Shown here: positions 44,643 to 52,683 of the stretch, in pieces | How positions within the stretch are numbered: position 1 is the first letter of the stretch | How the letters are laid out: each line of letters starts with the position of its first letter | DNA from: Frigoriglobus tundricola | Lineage (GTDB): Bacteria; Planctomycetota; Planctomycetia; Gemmatales; Gemmataceae | Assembly (NCBI RefSeq): GCF_013128195.2 | Contig: NZ_CP053452.2 | Coordinates: 3,720,001-3,784,000, forward strand | Length of the DNA stretch: 64,000 nucleotides | Reading direction: 5' to 3' | Translations under genes and position numbers: made by a program | The notes under the pieces: model-generated | The model's input: only the letters and a program-made list of their open reading frames with translations | Told to the model about the DNA's origin: nothing | Databases searched by the model: none

Positions 44643-47021
44643 ATGAGCCACGATCGCGCCCTACCGAATCCCGAAGCGCTGGCCCTTCAATCAACTGCGA
44701 CGGCTGATAATCGCCACCCGCCGACCGCCGACGGGCGGCCGCTCGGGCTCCTCCTCGTCAAGGACTCGGCCGACGACACCGAGCTGCTGCTTCTTGCTCT
44801 CGGGCGGGGCGGCCTCGACCCGGCGTATGAGCGGGTCGAGAGCGCCGACGGGCTGCGGGGGGCGCTCGCCGCCCGCCCCTGGGATGCCGTTATATCGGAC
44901 TACGACCTCTGCGGTTTCGGCGCACCCGCCGCCCTCGCCATCGTCCGGGCGGCCGACCCCGACCTCCCGTTCATCGTCGTGTCCGGGGCCGTCGGCGAGG
45001 ACGCGGCCGTCGAGATGATGCGGGCCTCCGCGAACGATTACATTCTCAAGCGGGACCTCACGCGCCTCGCGCCGACGGTCGAGCGTGAGGTCCGTGAGGC
45101 CGGGAACCGGCGGGCCCGGCGAGCGGCCGACCGGGCCGCCGCGCACCTGGCCGCCGTGGTCGAATCGTCGGACGACGCCATCGTCTCGAAGACCCTGGCC
45201 GGGGTCATCAACTCCTGGAACCGGGCCGCCGAACGGCTCTACGGGTGGACCGCGGCCGAGGCGGTGGGCCGGAACGTGTCCTTCCTCATCCCCCCGGACA
45301 AGTCCGCTGAGTGGGCCCGGAACATGGGCCGGCTGCAAGCCGACGAGCCGGTCGGGTACTTCGAGACGGTCCGGTTGCACCGCGACGGGCACCGGATCGA
45401 TGTGGCGCTGACCATGTCGGCCATCCGCGGCCCGGACGGACGGATGGTCGGGCTGTCGAAAACCGCCCGCGACATACGCGACCGGAAGCGGGCCGAGGAG
45501 GCCCTGCGGGCGATGGCGGAGCGGTATCAGACCCTGGTCGCGGCGACCGCCGAGATCGTGTGGGACTCGCCCCCGTCCGGGGCGTTCGATTCGGACCAGC
45601 CGGGGTGGACCACGTTCACCGGGCAGACCCGCGACCAGCACCAGGGGATGGGTTGGCTCGACGTCGTCCACCCGGACGACCGCGAGAAGAGCGGCCGGGC
45701 GTGGGCGGCGGCCGTGGCGGGCCGGTCAGTGTACCGGGTGGAGCACCGGCTCCGGCGGGCCGACGGGGCGTACCGGCACATGTCGGTACGGGCAATCCCG
45801 ATCCTCAGTGCGGGCGGCGACCTCAAGGGCTGGGTCGGGGTCCACACCGACGTCACCGAGCGCAAGGCCCTGGAGGAGCAGCTCCGCCAGGTGCAGAAGA
45901 TGGAGGCCGTCGGGCAACTCGCGGGGGGCGTGGCCCACGACTTCAACAACCTGCTCACCATCATCAACGGGTACAGCTACCTCCTCCTCCAGAACCTCCC
46001 GGCGACCGACCCGTCCCGGGAACTGATCGCTGAGATCTTCAAGGCCGGCGAGCGGTCGGCCGGTCTCACCCGACAGCTCCTGGCGTTCAGCCGGCAGCAA
46101 GTCCTCGCCCCCCGGGTTCTGGAACTGAATGACGTGGTGACCGACACCGGGAGCATGCTCCGTCGGCTGATCGGCGAGGGCGTGCGGCTGACCGTCGTCC
46201 CGGCCGCCGGGCTGTGGCCCGTGCGGGCCGATCCCGGGCAGATCGAGCAGGTGCTGATGAACCTGGCGGTGAACGCACGGGACGCCATGCCACAGGGCGG
46301 CAAGCTCACCATCGAGACCCGGAACGTCGAGTTGGACGAGGCGTATGCCCGGTCCCACCCGGACGCCCGCCCCGGGCCGCACGTCCTGGTGGCCGTGTCC
46401 GATACGGGGACCGGGATGCCGCCGGAGGTGCTGCGGCGCGTGTTCGAGCCGTTCTTCACCACCAAGGGGGTGGGCAAGGGGACCGGGCTCGGGCTGGCGA
46501 CCGTGCACGGGATCGTCAAGCAGAGCGGCGGGCACATCGCCGTGTACTCCGAGGCCGGAGTCGGGACGACGTTCAAGGTGTACCTGCCCCGGACGGATCC
46601 GCCCCCCGGCGGGTCGAAGATCGTCCGCGCGCCGGCGGTGGCGGCGCAGGGGACAGAGACGATCCTGGTCGTCGAGGACGAAGACGGGGTGCGGGCGCTG
46701 ACCTGCCACGTCCTGGTCGGCTGCGGGTACTTGGTGCTTGAGGCGGGTGATGCCGTGGAAGCGGCACGAGTCGCCACGGGGCACAGCGGCCCGATCCACC
46801 TTCTGATTACCGACGTCGTCCTGCCCGGGGCGGGCGGGCGCGCCGCGGCGGAGGTGATCGCCACCGGGCACCCAGAAGTGCAAGTGCTGTTCGTCTCCGG
46901 GTACACGGACGACGCGGTCATCCGGCACGGGGTGCTCGCCGAAGGAGTGAACTTCTTACAGAAGCCGTTTTCGCCAGCGGCACTGAGTTTCAAGGTGCGG
47001 GAGGTTCTCGATCGCCGGTAA
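44643..47021 (+). CDS. Hybrid sensor histidine kinase (REC-PAS-PAS-HisKA-HATPase-REC)
   Basis: The 792-residue protein has an N-terminal receiver at about 34-150 with acceptor Asp86 (AVISDYDL). Two PAS domains lie at about 165-285 and 290-410. HisKA has His432 in LAGGVAHDFNNLL. HATPase spans about 530-650 with N box NLAVNARDAM and G boxes SDTGTGMP and GKGTGLGLAT. A C-terminal receiver has acceptor Asp724 (LLITDVVLPG) and Lys in LQKPF. There are no membrane helices, so it is cytosolic and could sense a small molecule or redox state through PAS. All phosphotransfer residues are present. No separate response regulator is adjacent, so output may come from the terminal receiver. Confidence 0.95.
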   Translation: MSHDRALPNPEALALQSTATADNRHPPTADGRPLGLLLVKDSADDTELLLLALGRGGLDPAYERVESADGLRGALAARPWDAVISDYDLCGFGAPAALAIVRAADPDLPFIVVSGAVGEDAAVEMMRASANDYILKRDLTRLAPTVEREVREAGNRRARRAADRAAAHLAAVVESSDDAIVSKTLAGVINSWNRAAERLYGWTAAEAVGRNVSFLIPPDKSAEWARNMGRLQADEPVGYFETVRLHRDGHRIDVALTMSAIRGPDGRMVGLSKTARDIRDRKRAEEALRAMAERYQTLVAATAEIVWDSPPSGAFDSDQPGWTTFTGQTRDQHQGMGWLDVVHPDDREKSGRAWAAAVAGRSVYRVEHRLRRADGAYRHMSVRAIPILSAGGDLKGWVGVHTDVTERKALEEQLRQVQKMEAVGQLAGGVAHDFNNLLTIINGYSYLLLQNLPATDPSRELIAEIFKAGERSAGLTRQLLAFSRQQVLAPRVLELNDVVTDTGSMLRRLIGEGVRLTVVPAAGLWPVRADPGQIEQVLMNLAVNARDAMPQGGKLTIETRNVELDEAYARSHPDARPGPHVLVAVSDTGTGMPPEVLRRVFEPFFTTKGVGKGTGLGLATVHGIVKQSGGHIAVYSEAGVGTTFKVYLPRTDPPPGGSKIVRAPAVAAQGTETILVVEDEDGVRALTCHVLVGCGYLVLEAGDAVEAARVATGHSGPIHLLITDVVLPGAGGRAAAEVIATGHPEVQVLFVSGYTDDAVIRHGVLAEGVNFLQKPFSPAALSFKVREVLDRR

Positions 47022-48345: not shown

Positions 48346-48660
48346 TCACGAGGGCGTAGCAGTCGCGTCCCGCAGTCGAATGGCATCGACCGGACACACG
48401 AGTTCGCACGCGGAACACGACACGCAATCACGGGGGCGCGGGAGCCACGGCCGCGGGCCGCTCATGGCGAGGCAGTCCGTCGGGCACACGGCCACGCAGT
48501 CGCCGCACCCCGTGCAGCGGGCCGCGTTCAGTACCGGCAGTTCGCCCAGTGGGTTCAAGTGTACAGCTCTTGAGTGGGTGCCGGGTGGCACTCTTCTTTC
48601 GGGTGGGTCGCTGCCTCCGACGGCGACGGCGCGCGTGTGCCGGTTCGAGAACCGGATCAC
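48346..48660 (-). CDS. Ferredoxin with two 4Fe-4S clusters
   Basis: The protein has up to 104 residues. The C-terminal 60 carry two cluster motifs, CTGCGDCVAVCPTDCLAMSG and CVSCSACELVCPVDAIRL, each CxxCxxCxxxCP. The start is uncertain: the GTG at 48660 adds an unassigned basic tail, and a TTG giving MNPLGELPVLNAARC would yield a more typical ferredoxin of about 70 residues. It would carry electrons between cytosolic or membrane enzymes. It is last in a same-strand series after the pseudo-receiver gene, with a 57-bp gap from the longer start. Confidence 0.88.
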   Translation of the reverse strand: MIRFSNRHTRAVAVGGSDPPERRVPPGTHSRAVHLNPLGELPVLNAARCTGCGDCVAVCPTDCLAMSGPRPWLPRPRDCVSCSACELVCPVDAIRLRDATATPS

Positions 48661-48717
48661 GTCCTCTGGGGAGCGACCCCGACTGTCGGAGGCCGTCGGC
48701 CACCCGACAGACCCATT

Positions 48718-49230
48718 TCACTCGTGCAGTTCCTCGTCGGCGAGGTCGATCACCTCGTCTGCCGGCTGCGGGCGCTTCGGCTTCGGCGCGGGCGCGATCG
48801 CGGGCGCAGGGGCCGCGCCGACCACGCGGCGGATCGCCGCGGCCATCAGGCCGCTCATCACGTCCTCGAGAACGGGCTTGGTCAGAGGGGGGAAGAGAAC
48901 GTACCGCGCCCCCAGGTCGATCAGCGCCGCGGTCCACGCGACGCGGTCGGCATCGGAGAGCTTCACGTCGCTCACCGCCACCACCGGCACGTCGGGACAG
49001 GCGGTGCGCGCGTCGGCGATCAGGCGCAGGGCCGCCAGGTTGTCTTCCGCCAGCTCCACCTGAACGACCAGTACGCACGGGCGCCGCTCGCGGGCCAGCG
49101 CCAGCCCGGCTTCGACGCTCCGCGTGCCGCGGACCAGCCACGCGCCTTCGGCCGCGATGTCGCCCAGGTGCCGGGCGATCCACCCGTCGTACTCGACCAC
49201 CACGAGTTGCGGCGCGCGCACGGCGGTCAC
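48718..49230 (-). CDS. Pseudo-receiver domain protein
   Basis: The protein has 170 residues from a GTG (MTAVRAPQLVVVEYDGWIAR). The CheY-like fold can be followed: strand 1 LVVVEYDG (acidic pocket reduced), strand 3 RRPCVLVVQVELAEDN, strand 4 VPVVAVSDV with its Ser, and strand 5 GARYVLFPPLTKP with the conserved Lys-Pro. The phospho-acceptor Asp at the end of strand 3 is Gln, so normal phosphorylation is not expected. A proline-rich tail ends in an acidic DLADEELHE. Its start overlaps the stop of the AAA+ regulator gene by 4 nt (GTGA), so the two are translationally coupled and probably work together. Confidence 0.78.
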   Translation of the reverse strand: MTAVRAPQLVVVEYDGWIARHLGDIAAEGAWLVRGTRSVEAGLALARERRPCVLVVQVELAEDNLAALRLIADARTACPDVPVVAVSDVKLSDADRVAWTAALIDLGARYVLFPPLTKPVLEDVMSGLMAAAIRRVVGAAPAPAIAPAPKPKRPQPADEVIDLADEELHE

Positions 49231-50611
49231 TCCTCCGCTTTCTTCCGCGGCTTCGGCGGCTGGGGCGGAACGGGAATACCCAGCGCGTCGAGCCGGCGCG
49301 CCAGCCGCGCGCGGAACACGCCCAGGAGGTCGGCCGCCTCCGTCTGGTTGTTGTTGGTCTTCCGGAGCGCGAGCAGGATCAGCCGTTTCTCGACCGCTTC
49401 GAGGACCGCGTCCAGGTTCAGCGGTTTCAGGGGCTGCGCGCGCGGCAGGTCGGCGCGGACCCGCAGGTCGAGCGGCAGGTGGTCACGCAGGATCGGCCCT
49501 GTGGGGCTGACGGCGGCGGCTGCGGTCAGCACGTCGATCAGTTCGCGGACGTTCCCGGGCCAGGAGTGCGCCCGAAGCACCGGCAGCGCGGCGGCGTCGA
49601 TGGGGCGGTTCGGGACGATCCGCGCCGCGAGCCGCGGGAGGTCATCGAGCCGGTCGCGGAGGGGCGGCACCCGTACCTCGAGCGCCGAAAGCGCGGTCTG
49701 GAAGACCGGCACGAGCGCACCGGCCGCGACCGCCTCCTGCGCCGTTCGCACCGACCCGCAGATCAGCCGCATGTCCGGCTGGTTGTGGTAGTGGTCGGCG
49801 AGCCGCTGTTGCAGGTCGCGCGGCAGGTCGGTGGGCTCCTTCAGGTACACGGTGCCGACGCGGTCCGACTCGGACAACCCGCCGTGGCCGAACAGCAGGC
49901 TCTCGATGAGGTAGGGCTGGAGCCCGGCACAGTCGATGGCGAGGAACGCGCGGTCGCGGAGCCGGCCGGTGGAGTGAACGGCGCGGGCGACCGTTTCCTT
50001 ACCCGCGCCCGGTTCGCCCACGATCCAAACGGGTGCGGACACTTCGGCCGCGAGCCGCACCTGTGCGACGAGCCGCGCGGAGGCGAGCGACTCGCCGGCG
50101 AGCCGGTCGGGGCCGAAGTGGTTCGCGTGGCGGTCCCGCAGCGCGGCCACACCGGGCGGAATCCGCCGGGCCGCGGCCGGGACCGGCTCGCCCACCACCG
50201 CGACGAAACCGACGACCCCGAACAGCTCTCGTTTACCACCCATCTCCGTTGGCGGTTCGGGCGCCCGGCTGACGAGGGGAGCAAATATCACGTCCCACCA
50301 CGGCGGGCCGCTGCGGTTGGGCGGGGCGGGGCGGCGTGCGCGGTCGGCGCGGCCGGCGAGCGCTTCGGGGTCGGCGCGAGGGCCGCCTGGAGCGGCGTGC
50401 TGCTCCGCCGGGCGGTACACACCATGCCGAGCGCGTCTTCGAGCTTCACGCCGGTGAGTTCCTCCCACGCGGCGTTCGCGAACCGTAACCGCTTGCCCTT
50501 CCCGAGAACGAAAACCGGTGTCGCACTCTGGTGGAAGAACGCGCGCCACCCGAACCCGCCCGACCCGCGCGGGCGGCCCTTTCCAGAAGGTGGCGAAGGA
50601 GGCGTAGCCAT
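49227..50611 (-). pseudogene. Degenerate NtrC-like regulator (PAS, AAA+, Fis HTH), one frameshift
   Basis: The frame from the ATG at 50611 reads MATPPSPPSGKGRPRG and a PAS-like FHQSATPVFVLGKGKRLRFA and AAWEELTGVKLEDALG. Near 50370 one C appears missing. The other frame continues with PPWWDVIFAPLVS, an AAA+ core with Walker A VGEPGAGKETV, LLFGHGGLSESD and VYLKEPTDLPRDLQQRL, arginine-finger region VPPLRDRLDDLPRLA, HSWPGNVRELIDV and a Fis-type HTH (NNNQTEAADLLGVFRARLAR). The GAFTGA loop that contacts sigma-54 is absent and the Walker B Asp is Lys (LKEP for LDEI). It may bind DNA without sigma-54 or ATP hydrolysis. It is coupled to the pseudo-receiver gene. Confidence 0.78.
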
Positions 50612-50757
50612 GTCGAGCCGCGGAACCCGAGACGTGACGCCGGCGCGTTTTCAGAAAGTCGGTCACTCGCTCCGCGGGTGACACCCGCCACCGACCCCAA
50701 GCAGAAAGGGCGCGACTCGCCGGCTTTGTCGGTCACTCGCTGCGCGAGGCGTCTACT

Positions 50758-50952
50758 TCACAGATAGGTGGAGAGCAGGTACAGCACAACGCCGATGGCG
50801 ACGAGGAAACCGGTGATGCGGAGCCCCCACCCGGTCGCCTCCTGGACGATCTTGTCCCACCGGTCGTGGCGGGTGGCCGCGTACACGAGGCTGACAACCA
50901 CCAGCAGGACCGGCAGGTCCCAGTAGATGCTCACGGCCAGAAGCGGAAGCAT
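50758..50952 (-). CDS. Small membrane protein (64 aa)
   Basis: Its start overlaps the upstream stop as TAATG, so it is translationally coupled to the DUF6677-like gene. The sequence MLPLLAVSIYWDLPVLLVVV forms a first helix, followed by a charged loop (RHDRWDKIVQEATGWG) and a second helix (LRITGFLVAIGVVLYLLSTY). The two-helix hairpin is typical of small subunits or tethering peptides. No family is assigned. The tight overlap and clear codon bias support a real gene. Confidence 0.8.
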   Translation of the reverse strand: MLPLLAVSIYWDLPVLLVVVSLVYAATRHDRWDKIVQEATGWGLRITGFLVAIGVVLYLLSTYL

Positions 50953-51632
50953 TACGCGCCCCCCAGTTGCTGAGGAACGGGACCCTGGGCCGTTGCGGCC
51001 GGAACGAGCGGTGGCGGCCCCCCCTGCGCGGCCGTTGCGGCCGGAACAGGCGGCGGCGGGACCTCCAGTTCGGCGGCATCGAACGCCGACTCCGCGGGCG
51101 GGTCGCGGAACATCGGGCCGGCGAACGCGTCGTAGATCACGAGCAGATTGAGGACGCCGGCTATGACGGTGTACACCCAGCCGAGGTCCCACCGCTTGTT
51201 CCCGTTCCGCTGGAGTTCGTTCAGCTCCCTCTCGTCGGGCGTGCGCTCGAACTTCCCGAAGATCGGGCCGGAATCCTTGGTGCGGTCGAACACGACGTAC
51301 TGGTACACGGCCGGCCACGCGGCGGTCCCGATCCAGAACTGGCCCAGGAACTGCGGGCGGTAGGAGACGGCCTTCGCCGCACCGCCGAGGGTCTGGCCCG
51401 CGATCGCCACATCGGGCAGGCCGTCCGCGTCCGGCAGCCACACGTTCCGCCACTGCCCCATCCACATGCCGTAGAAGAACAGCACGTACAGGCCGCCGAA
51501 AAAGAGGAGCCCCTTCCCCACCCGCCCCTGGTAGATCTGCCCGAGGCCGGGGATGACGTAGCTCAGGAGGCCTGCGAGCGGGTCGAACTTGACCGGCGGG
51601 AGCGGCAGATCGGCGGTCATCGGGGACGCCAT
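50952..51632 (-). CDS. DUF6677-like membrane protein
   Basis: The protein has 226 residues from the ATG giving MASPMTADLPLPPVKFDPLA. The first helix region LLSYVIPGLGQIYQGRVGKG contains the PGLGQxYxG motif shared with DUF6677 and TM2-type proteins. Further helices are LLFFGGLYVLFFYGMWMG and WVYTVIAGVLNLLVIYDAFA. The C-terminal tail is Pro/Ala-rich, with a duplicated VPAATA(A)QG segment. The role is unknown. It precedes the coupled 64-aa membrane protein, and the AAA+ regulator gene follows 146 bp after that, all on the minus strand. Confidence 0.8.
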   Translation of the reverse strand: MASPMTADLPLPPVKFDPLAGLLSYVIPGLGQIYQGRVGKGLLFFGGLYVLFFYGMWMGQWRNVWLPDADGLPDVAIAGQTLGGAAKAVSYRPQFLGQFWIGTAAWPAVYQYVVFDRTKDSGPIFGKFERTPDERELNELQRNGNKRWDLGWVYTVIAGVLNLLVIYDAFAGPMFRDPPAESAFDAAELEVPPPPVPAATAAQGGPPPLVPAATAQGPVPQQLGGA

Positions 51633-51745: not shown

Positions 51746-52479
51746 TCACCGAGGCCAAGGGACCTGCACGGGCAGCGTGATCAACCCCTTAATCTGGCCG
51801 ACGTGGGCGGCCGTGTAGACGAGCAGCCCGAGCCCGATCGCTCCGTAGACTTGTTTGAACAAACCGGAACACAGCAGCCGGCCGGGCGGTCCCAACAGCC
51901 CGCAGGCCCCGTCGAACAGCGCGTTCAACGCCACCAGCGGCAGCAGCGGGAACGGCACCGGCGGCGCGGTCGGCGCCGGGGTCAGTCCCGTGGTCGAGGT
52001 CGGAACGGGTGTCAGTCCCGTGGTCGAGGTCGGCGCGGGTGTCAGCGCCGCAGGGGGTTCGGGTGCCGGTGACGCCGCAGCGACCGGCTCCTCCGCCGGA
52101 TCGGGTGCCGGGGGCGGGGGTTCGGGTGCGGGGGGCGCCTTCGCTACCGGTCGCGCCGCGTCGGGAGGAGGTGGAACGGCCGTCGGTTTGGAACGGACCG
52201 GCGGAGCCGGCGCCGCTGCGGGGGCGCCGGAACCGCTTCCAGCGCCAGGGCCAGCGACGGCGGCATCACGGGCGGCGGGGCCGGCGGCGCGGGCACCTCC
52301 GCGGGCGGTACCGGCGGCTCGGCCCGCCACGCCGTCGGCTGTGGGCGCGCCCCGGGGCGGTTCGCCGGCACGGGCGTTTCCGCGGGTGTGAGCGGCACCG
52401 ACAGCATCCGCTGGAGCAGCGCGTCGAGTTCGTCGAGCTGCTGGCGGGTCAGGTCGTTCGGGCTGGGGGCGGTGGCCAT
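51746..52479 (-). pseudogene. Proline-rich protein with C-terminal hydrophobic segments, one frameshift
   Basis: The frame starts MATAPSPNDLTRQQLDELDA and LLQRMLSVPLTPAE, a short helical part, then a long Pro/Ala tract. Around 52220 the frame must change to read APPVRSKPTAVPPPPDAARP. A tandem TSTTGLTPVP repeat follows, then FPLLPLVALNALFDGACGLL and AIGLGLLVYTAAHVGQIKGL, to the stop at 51746. One base is missing overall, in a C/G-rich run. The hydrophobic C-terminal part and the helical N-terminus suggest a membrane-tethered scaffold or linker protein. No family is recognised. It is divergent from the zinc-ribbon propeller gene. Confidence 0.65.
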
Positions 52480-52683
52480 GAGCTTCCTTCCGCGGCCAAA
52501 CCGCGCCAAGTGCGCGGCGCGGCATCCTGCCGGTCGTGGTGCACCGGAAGCGGAGTCTAGCCCGGGGGGAAGCGGGAAAAAAGAGCAAGTCGGGGGGTAC
52601 GGGCCGACCCGCGGTGCTTGCACTCGCGGTCCGGATTCGGAACAATAACAACACCTCAACACCCCCTCCCAGGTGTTCCGCCG

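Follow-up and report, generated by a model that had tools for sequence, protein, structure and literature searches.

A degenerate enhancer-binding protein and a separately encoded pseudo-receiver as a probable unphosphorylated gene switch in Frigoriglobus tundricola and its relatives

On the minus strand of a 64,000-nucleotide (nt) stretch of the genome of Frigoriglobus tundricola (contig NZ_CP053452.2; here the window, to whose positions all coordinates refer), two adjoining genes encode a regulator related to the bacterial enhancer-binding proteins (bEBPs) and a receiver-like protein. Both proteins have lost the chemistry that drives their kinds, yet both are kept in numerous relatives, often beside genes for iron-sulfur (Fe-S) or electron-transfer proteins; hence, the pair is probably a working gene switch, though an unusual one that does without phosphorylation. 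By alignment, the L1/GAFTGA loop, the Walker B pair, and the arginine fingers of the regulator are degenerate across a family set apart from canonical bEBPs, and the receiver-like proteins likewise form a family of pseudo-receivers without the residues needed for phosphate, which co-occurs with the regulator in the window's own bacterial family. As far as the motifs can tell, the regulator is likely to be unable to act as a sigma-54 activator by ATP hydrolysis. The explanation that we find best, with chances that we put at about even, is that it is a DNA-binding pseudo-bEBP with a PAS domain, which works independently of both sigma-54 and phosphorylation, has the pseudo-receiver as its partner in trans, and perhaps plays a role in Fe-S or redox processes.

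The regulator and its family

The principal features of the two genes are as follows, with "family loci" and "references" denoting the orthologous loci and the reference bEBPs described below.

49227-50611, minus strand: regulator gene (PAS, AAA+, and helix-turn-helix), frame-broken in the window
50371..50611, minus strand: PAS part of the regulator, in another frame, from the ATG at 50611 (PF13188, 3.6e-7); single-frame in congeners
49227..50366, minus strand: AAA+ (pseudo-bEBP) and Fis-type helix-turn-helix part of the regulator, in frame with the stop codon at 49227 (Pfam and orthologue alignment)
49995..50018, minus strand: Walker A, GEPGAGKE, kept (read from the sequence; Lys in 76/102 family loci, Arg in 22)
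49854..49889, minus strand: place of the lost L1 loop with GAFTGA, GHGGLSESDRVG (alignment; GAFTGA-like motif in 0/103 family loci)
49833..49853, minus strand: degenerate Walker B, TVYLKEP, with Asp replaced by Lys and Glu kept (alignment; references read T-[LI]-F-L-D-E)
49281..49349, minus strand: Fis-type helix-turn-helix (PF02954, 2.2e-9)
48718..49230, minus strand: separate pseudo-receiver gene, 170 amino acids (AlphaFold2 model, Foldseek, profile matches, and 70-sequence alignment)

The roles of the motifs in the work of bEBPs on sigma-54 are taken here from part of PMC7175178. Pfam recognizes in the regulator an AAA+ domain (PF14532, 1.4e-18; PF00158, 4e-16) with its lid (PF25601) and, at the C terminus, HTH_8, and both Pfam and the structural model agree on an AAA+ fold with lid followed by a Fis-type helix-turn-helix (HTH), as in bEBPs. 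The Walker A lysine is likewise present in the window copy; the Asp-Glu pair of Walker B is absent, its place being taken by Lys-Glu. Within NCBIfam, the AAA+ part is matched by the TyrR model at 64 bits, with NtrX as the third match. An AlphaFold2 model of the regulator of a congener (predicted local distance difference test [pLDDT] score, 84) matches NtrX, ZraR, DmpR, PspF, FleQ, and VpsR, with NtrX of Brucella abortus (5m7n/o/p) as the top Foldseek match, and the closest solved relatives by sequence profile are ZraR (1ojl), NifA, FleQ, an NtrC-family protein, and, again, NtrX.

An earlier reading of the locus from the letters of the DNA (here the sequence-only reading) had described an AAA+ protein that lost the GAFTGA loop and the Walker B Asp and kept Walker A and a Fis-type HTH. 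All of these motifs had been read correctly; what had escaped it was the N-terminal PAS domain, the N terminus of its open reading frame (ORF) being spurious. The first ~105 residues of that 485-amino-acid ORF are out of frame, and the true N terminus is the PAS domain beginning with the ATG at 50611. In congeners, PAS, AAA+, and HTH lie in one uninterrupted frame; aligning the DNA of the window with that of four congeners locates the break at ~50366-50371. As the congeners are unbroken and intact copies exist, it is the window copy that carries the break. An assembly error is probably likelier than a real lesion: the proline-rich gene further upstream (51746-52480) has a frame break of its own and is whole in three relatives (L043, L048, and L057), and a sigma-54 activator domain in the same assembly is split across two open frames (G000:C1:9740077-9740486), which together suggest, without proving, insertion-deletion or assembly errors. 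A programmed frameshift in the regulator gene is ruled out by the congeners, which are single-frame throughout.

The family was delineated by a protein search among 59 relatives and by a profile run against 248 genomes of the class. The latter yielded at least 150 matches, the best of which, listed down to 2e-93, came from 150 different genomes, and among these listed matches there is one regulator copy per genome. Inspection covered 97 of the 150 and six further matches from the protein search, giving 103 loci, one per genome; the 53 listed matches left uninspected include none from the window's family. By family code, the window's family (f1) accounts for 60 of the 103, f2 of the same order for two, f3 for 11, f4 for 19, and other families of the class (f6, f8, f9, f13, f14, f17, f18, and f20) for the remaining 11. 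Two f1 genomes stand outside the set of 60, namely, G018, which has only a 3' fragment of the regulator (L038) with receiver and ferredoxin beside it, and G007, which is 82% complete and gave no family match in the protein search. Of the nine bEBPs that served as references, eight are the best PF00158 matches in the genome to which the window belongs.

The sequence-only reading had held that homologues with intact GAFTGA and Walker B would speak against it. None of the 103 loci has a GAFTGA-like motif, which all nine references possess, and only one retains both Walker B residues (Asp in four, Glu in 38), which again are both present in 9/9 references. Both arginine fingers occur in 2/103 loci versus 9/9 references. 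The Walker A position is less uniform, with Lys in 76 of 102 loci and in all references, and Arg in 22 loci (11 of f4, seven of the other families, two of f1, and two of f2); the lysine is nearly always kept in f1 and f3, and the HTH is kept. The orthologue alignment shows PAS, the Walker A glycines, lid, and HTH to be conserved. The PAS region in cis is covered in 96/103 loci, the seven exceptions being the two f2 copies and five others that are truncated or frame-broken, and there is no receiver in cis such as is found in VpsR and in NtrC of Rhodobacter capsulatus. The recurrence of identical motif losses in 103 orthologues places the observation beyond chance.

In a tree of 112 sequences (built by a quick method, with support by the Shimodaira-Hasegawa-like approximate likelihood ratio test [SH-aLRT] only), a branch with support of 100 separates the family from the reference bEBPs. 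The f1, f2, f3, and f4 sequences each lie on one side of a branch of their own (98, 100, 97, and 96, respectively), and the mixed remainder is supported at 69. The tree thus tracks the lineage codes, and this fits an old single-copy gene, kept under vertical inheritance, rather than decay. One locus intended as a control, L202 (genome G046, f5), turned out to be a further divergent PAS-pseudo-bEBP without GAFTGA; hence, the 103 counted loci are not the full extent of the family.

The pseudo-receiver and its pairing with the regulator

The regulator's stop codon (49227-49229) and the GTG start of the next gene (49230) produce a 4-nt overlap, and residue 57 of the encoded protein, at the phospho-Asp position, is Gln (49060-49062); both had been noticed in the sequence-only reading and stand. 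An AlphaFold2 model of the window receiver (pLDDT, 87) displays the beta-alpha order of receivers, and its Foldseek matches are the receivers of KdpE, PhoP, DivK, and NtrX. It is thus a (beta-alpha)5 receiver fold without the catalytic residues, the fold being taken from the model of the window copy only. Sequence searches recover this relationship faintly: Pfam gives the window copy no match up to E = 1, PF00072 included, the best NCBIfam match is a weak one to the NtrX receiver (20.7 bits), and a profile of the family matches PDB receivers, NtrX among them, with a best E value of 1.4e-5.

Seventy family receivers were aligned with two canonical ones, L191 having been dropped since it is split by an insertion. 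At the phospho-Asp position these 70 have Gln in 29, Arg in 14, Glu in 10, Lys in eight, Val in four, Ala in two, and Leu, Trp, and Thr in one each; neither the Asp nor the conserved Lys of response regulators occurs in any (0/70 for both). The pseudo-receivers of the window's genus and of L049 end in an acidic tail resembling VIDLADEE (residues 160-170), which is absent from deeper members. This conserved tail could be a docking peptide.

A same-strand receiver gene follows the regulator downstream in 48/60 loci of f1, 2/2 of f2, and 10/11 of the other families, but in 0/11 of f3 and 0/19 of f4. The gene pair is thus conserved, a lack of such conservation having been named in the sequence-only reading as speaking against it. 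Among the 48 linked receivers of f1, 45 lie within 200 bases of the regulator, and in 29 the match starts at or before its end. In f1, 12 genomes lack a linked receiver; eleven of them carry one elsewhere (best match of at least 71.9 bits; ~15 kb away in G010), leaving G020, which is 75% complete, as the only f1 regulator genome in which no receiver was found.

Presence and absence of the two genes largely coincide in f1. Genome G091, which at first seemed regulator-less, has a divergent regulator, a receiver, and a ferredoxin in a row, and was added to the co-occurrence count once this copy was seen; G007 and G018 are outside that count. The receiver is accordingly present in 60 of 61 regulator-bearing f1 genomes (48 linked, 11 elsewhere, and G091, linked). 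In the 12 regulator-less f1 genomes, the profile search found no family receiver in any, with best scores of at most 38.7 bits; the match at 38.7 bits, in G019, is a receiver of the ordinary kind that has retained its Asp, and weaker, uninspected matches in G138, G195, G236, and G253 score at most 30 bits. Receiver and regulator thus agree in presence in 72 of 73 f1 genomes (60, G091, and 12). An unlinked receiver was not found by the f1 receiver profile in three f3 and four f4 genomes, a weak absence in that this profile likewise failed to pick up the receiver known to be linked in G047.

Taking these findings together, we propose that a dimer of the regulator would bind DNA through its Fis-type domain and, going by the loss of GAFTGA only, might act at sigma-70-type promoters. 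Its AAA+ domain may bind a nucleotide in the Walker A pocket, or some other ligand, without hydrolysis, or may serve as a mere scaffold, and the PAS domain would receive a signal in cis, perhaps joined by a bound nucleotide as a further cue. The pseudo-receiver, in turn, might dock in trans on the PAS or AAA+ part, as the cis receiver of NtrC and NtrX does on its own protein, and would be controlled by its abundance or by protein contact instead of by phosphate. Less firmly, the neighbors in three lineages hint that the output or the signal could concern Fe-S clusters or electron transfer.

Genomic neighbors and competing explanations

The gene order on the minus strand of the window is proline-rich protein, DUF6677, 64-amino-acid membrane protein, regulator, receiver-like protein, and ferredoxin. 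The genes flanking the pair are as follows.

51746-52480, minus strand: proline-rich protein with a C-terminal membrane segment, frame-broken in the window; N-terminal motif TRQQLDELDALL
50952..51632, minus strand: DUF6677 membrane protein (PF20382, 1.5e-22), a neighbor that is near-universal in the class
50758..50952, minus strand: 64-amino-acid membrane protein coupled to DUF6677, a neighbor of the regulator, upstream of it in 21/60 f1 loci
48346..48660, minus strand: 2[4Fe-4S] ferredoxin (PF12838, 7.8e-14), start codon uncertain, conserved part from ~residue 35

On the plus strand, two genes past the ferredoxin, a hybrid protein with receiver, PAS, histidine kinase, and receiver parts, as judged by eye, is encoded at 44643-47021.

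The sequence-only reading had joined DUF6677 and the 64-amino-acid protein to the regulator as parts of one signaling module, perhaps linked to redox or membrane state. They do precede the regulator, their ORFs sharing one base (50952); membership in a module, however, is rejected. DUF6677 is found in 242/248 genomes of the class, including 11 of the 12 regulator-less f1 genomes (and above the cutoff in 0/14 control genomes), and within the stretches examined the two genes lie upstream of the regulator in 21/60 f1 loci and in 0/43 others. Being near-universal and mostly unlinked, DUF6677 is a neighbor and not a module part, which leaves the link to membrane state unsupported. The link to redox state fared better, with some support from neighbors in three lineages.

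The ferredoxin, already recognized from the sequence of the window, lies downstream on the same strand in 41/60 f1 and 2/2 f2 loci, and in G091 the trio is followed by a class V aminotransferase that by eye is NifS/IscS-like. The 11 f3 loci have a different set of same-strand genes upstream, namely, SufT/FeS_assembly_P in nine, an HTH-S24 regulator in eight, SufE in six, and a Rieske protein in six (one example of each identified by Pfam and the remainder by tblastn). In the 11 loci of the other families, a NuoM/NuoN-like pair (PF00361; subunit names assigned by eye) is directly upstream in five, and an Mrp/NBP35/NUBPL-type Fe-S carrier (PF10609 plus PF01883; Pfam-checked in four of the eight) follows in eight, so that 9/11 have one or both, all on the same strand. 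The same Fe-S queries found nothing near 19 canonical bEBPs (20 control loci, less L202 as a family member). A scan for neighboring ORFs shared between loci was crowded by antisense ORFs and serves as a lead only. The recurrence of an Fe-S or redox neighborhood in three lineages is suggestive, though no proof, of a role in Fe-S or electron-transfer processes.

By eye, further genes recur at some loci. A PfkB-type sugar kinase-like gene immediately precedes the regulator, on its strand, at the f4 loci L133, L136, and L140. An LpxB-like gene lies downstream of the regulator at the f3 loci L060, L061, L124, and L125, and one follows it on the opposite strand at the f4 locus L132.

Several observations weigh against the proposed switch and its Fe-S connection. 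None of the tested Fe-S neighbors occurs at the 19 f4 loci or at the single f5, f13, and f20 loci, 19/60 f1 loci are without a linked ferredoxin, and the f3 and f4 regulators have no linked receiver; hence, neither the linked receiver nor the Fe-S genes are required everywhere. The list of Fe-S genes was compiled with the loci already in view, which makes the 0/19 control weak, and since neighbors are shared by descent within a lineage, the loci amount to about three independent observations in favor and up to four against. Upstream of the regulator, no conserved operator was found in 11 genomes of the genus, in a search confined to exact dyads of 5 to 7 bases. The 103 loci were themselves chosen by a profile built from degenerate members, favoring degenerate matches. 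Finally, Rrf2-family regulators are present in 117/119 genomes, which also leaves the idea that the regulator replaces Rrf2/IscR unsupported.

That the Fe-S neighborhoods are coincidental, and that we are dealing with a sigma-54-independent regulator of something else, is possible although we think it doubtful: the Fe-S genes do differ among lineages, come from a post hoc list, and are missing from f4 and the single f5, f13, and f20 loci, but in three lineages they lie on the same strand and are kept within each, and the canonical controls gave none. It is also conceivable, though unlikely, that regulator and receiver are merely cotranscribed and that the receiver serves the ferredoxin, or a kinase or other partner outside the locus. 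The ferredoxin still adjoins 9 of the 11 unlinked f1 receivers, and the f3 and f4 regulators do without a linked receiver, as such separate action would have it; against it stand the near-perfect co-occurrence of the two genes in f1 (60/61 regulator genomes, 0/12 without the regulator) and the recurrence of the pair in distant families (10/11) without the ferredoxin.

A pseudo-bEBP could alternatively modulate true bEBPs through mixed oligomers or shared sites, thereby tuning sigma-54 promoters while activating none itself. Co-dependent bEBPs are known in the case of HrpR/HrpS, the model still shows the AAA+ fold, and the window's genome has 20 strong PF00158 matches besides the regulator. Yet 101/103 loci lack one or both of the arginine fingers and all 103 lack the loop that contacts sigma-54, and we regard this possibility as quite unlikely. 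Least probable by far is that the regulator is a decaying bEBP or pseudogene, with the frame break of the window copy and the motif losses as signs of its demise; we reject it on the strength of 103 loci spread over the class, in which PAS, lid, HTH, and the glycines of Walker A are conserved, of unbroken congeners, and of a tree that tracks the lineage codes.

The preferred explanation remains the PAS-bearing pseudo-bEBP with a pseudo-receiver partner in trans. A bolder version, which is speculative and which we would ourselves sooner doubt than believe, is that the two proteins form a class-wide, vertically inherited "dead two-component" system, incapable both of sigma-54 work driven by ATP hydrolysis and of accepting phosphate, which is devoted to sensing the state of Fe-S clusters or of the respiratory chain and to regulating in response; the ferredoxin, the SUF-type or complex I-like genes, and the Fe-S carrier would be its targets or the source of its signal. 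Should the Fe-S link hold, it would identify a regulator for the Fe-S or respiratory genes of these bacteria. More generally, the family suggests that receiver phosphorylation can disappear along with the machinery of the sigma-54 power stroke (L1 loop, Walker B, and arginine fingers) without either protein being given up over the depth of a class. A stand-alone pseudo-receiver with a conserved partner is, moreover, a case accessible to structure and genetics.

Relationship to known systems

TyrR resembles the regulator in combining PAS, a GAFTGA-less AAA+ domain, and HTH at sigma-70 promoters; it differs in binding aromatic amino acids via an ACT domain and in having no known receiver partner. 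The FleQ-FleN and NifA-NifL systems are comparable to the pair as a whole, in that a bEBP is placed under a separate partner protein instead of under phosphorylation, and structures of these complexes are among the fold matches. FleN, however, is a MinD-like ATPase and NifL a PAS-kinase-like flavoprotein, and neither is a receiver. NtrX is likened to both proteins by its presence among the PDB matches of both profiles. It unites receiver and AAA+ domain in one protein, has NtrY as its partner kinase, and is not known to have a PAS domain. The ntrY-ntrX pair is named in a passage of PMC10274813, where NtrX of Caulobacter is described as GAFTGA-less.

VpsR of Vibrio cholerae shares with the regulator a bEBP scaffold without GAFTGA and is its relative both by profile and by fold. 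It has its receiver in cis and binds cyclic di-GMP. As recounted in part of PMC10274813, VpsR needs neither ATP nor phosphorylation at its sigma-70 promoters, and its own conserved Asp senses phosphate; the regulator described here has instead a PAS domain in cis and an Asp-less receiver encoded by a separate gene. According to the same part of that source, NtrC of R. capsulatus and of Caulobacter also have the L1 loop with GAFTGA deleted and act at sigma-70 promoters, and the former needs to bind ATP without hydrolyzing it. Each of them is, however, a response regulator that carries its own receiver domain, the Asp of which is important (PMC10274813, in part).

The closest parallel for the partner is with the Asp-less receivers, which have the receiver fold without the phospho-Asp and for which, as for pseudo-receivers, control by protein contact or expression level is considered possible in a section of PMC12632262; there the switching of bacterial pseudo-receivers is called a mystery. 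The partner described here is distinguished by standing alone, by accompanying a pseudo-bEBP, and by having been missed, in its window copy, by the Pfam receiver profile. Proteins such as the regulator are overlooked by surveys that rely on GAFTGA, as in PMC12316311, which, by the portion describing its survey, retained GAFTGA-bearing proteins only.

A search of titles and the beginnings of abstracts in the open-access literature found no description of this family or pair. The sequence-only reading knew of no described system of such make-up, which, as far as that search reached, stands for the combination and has to be qualified for the regulator, GAFTGA-less bEBPs of sigma-70 promoters being on record, again in part of PMC10274813. 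Both halves of the pair have known relatives, and it is their combination, their spread through the class, and their Fe-S surroundings that look new.

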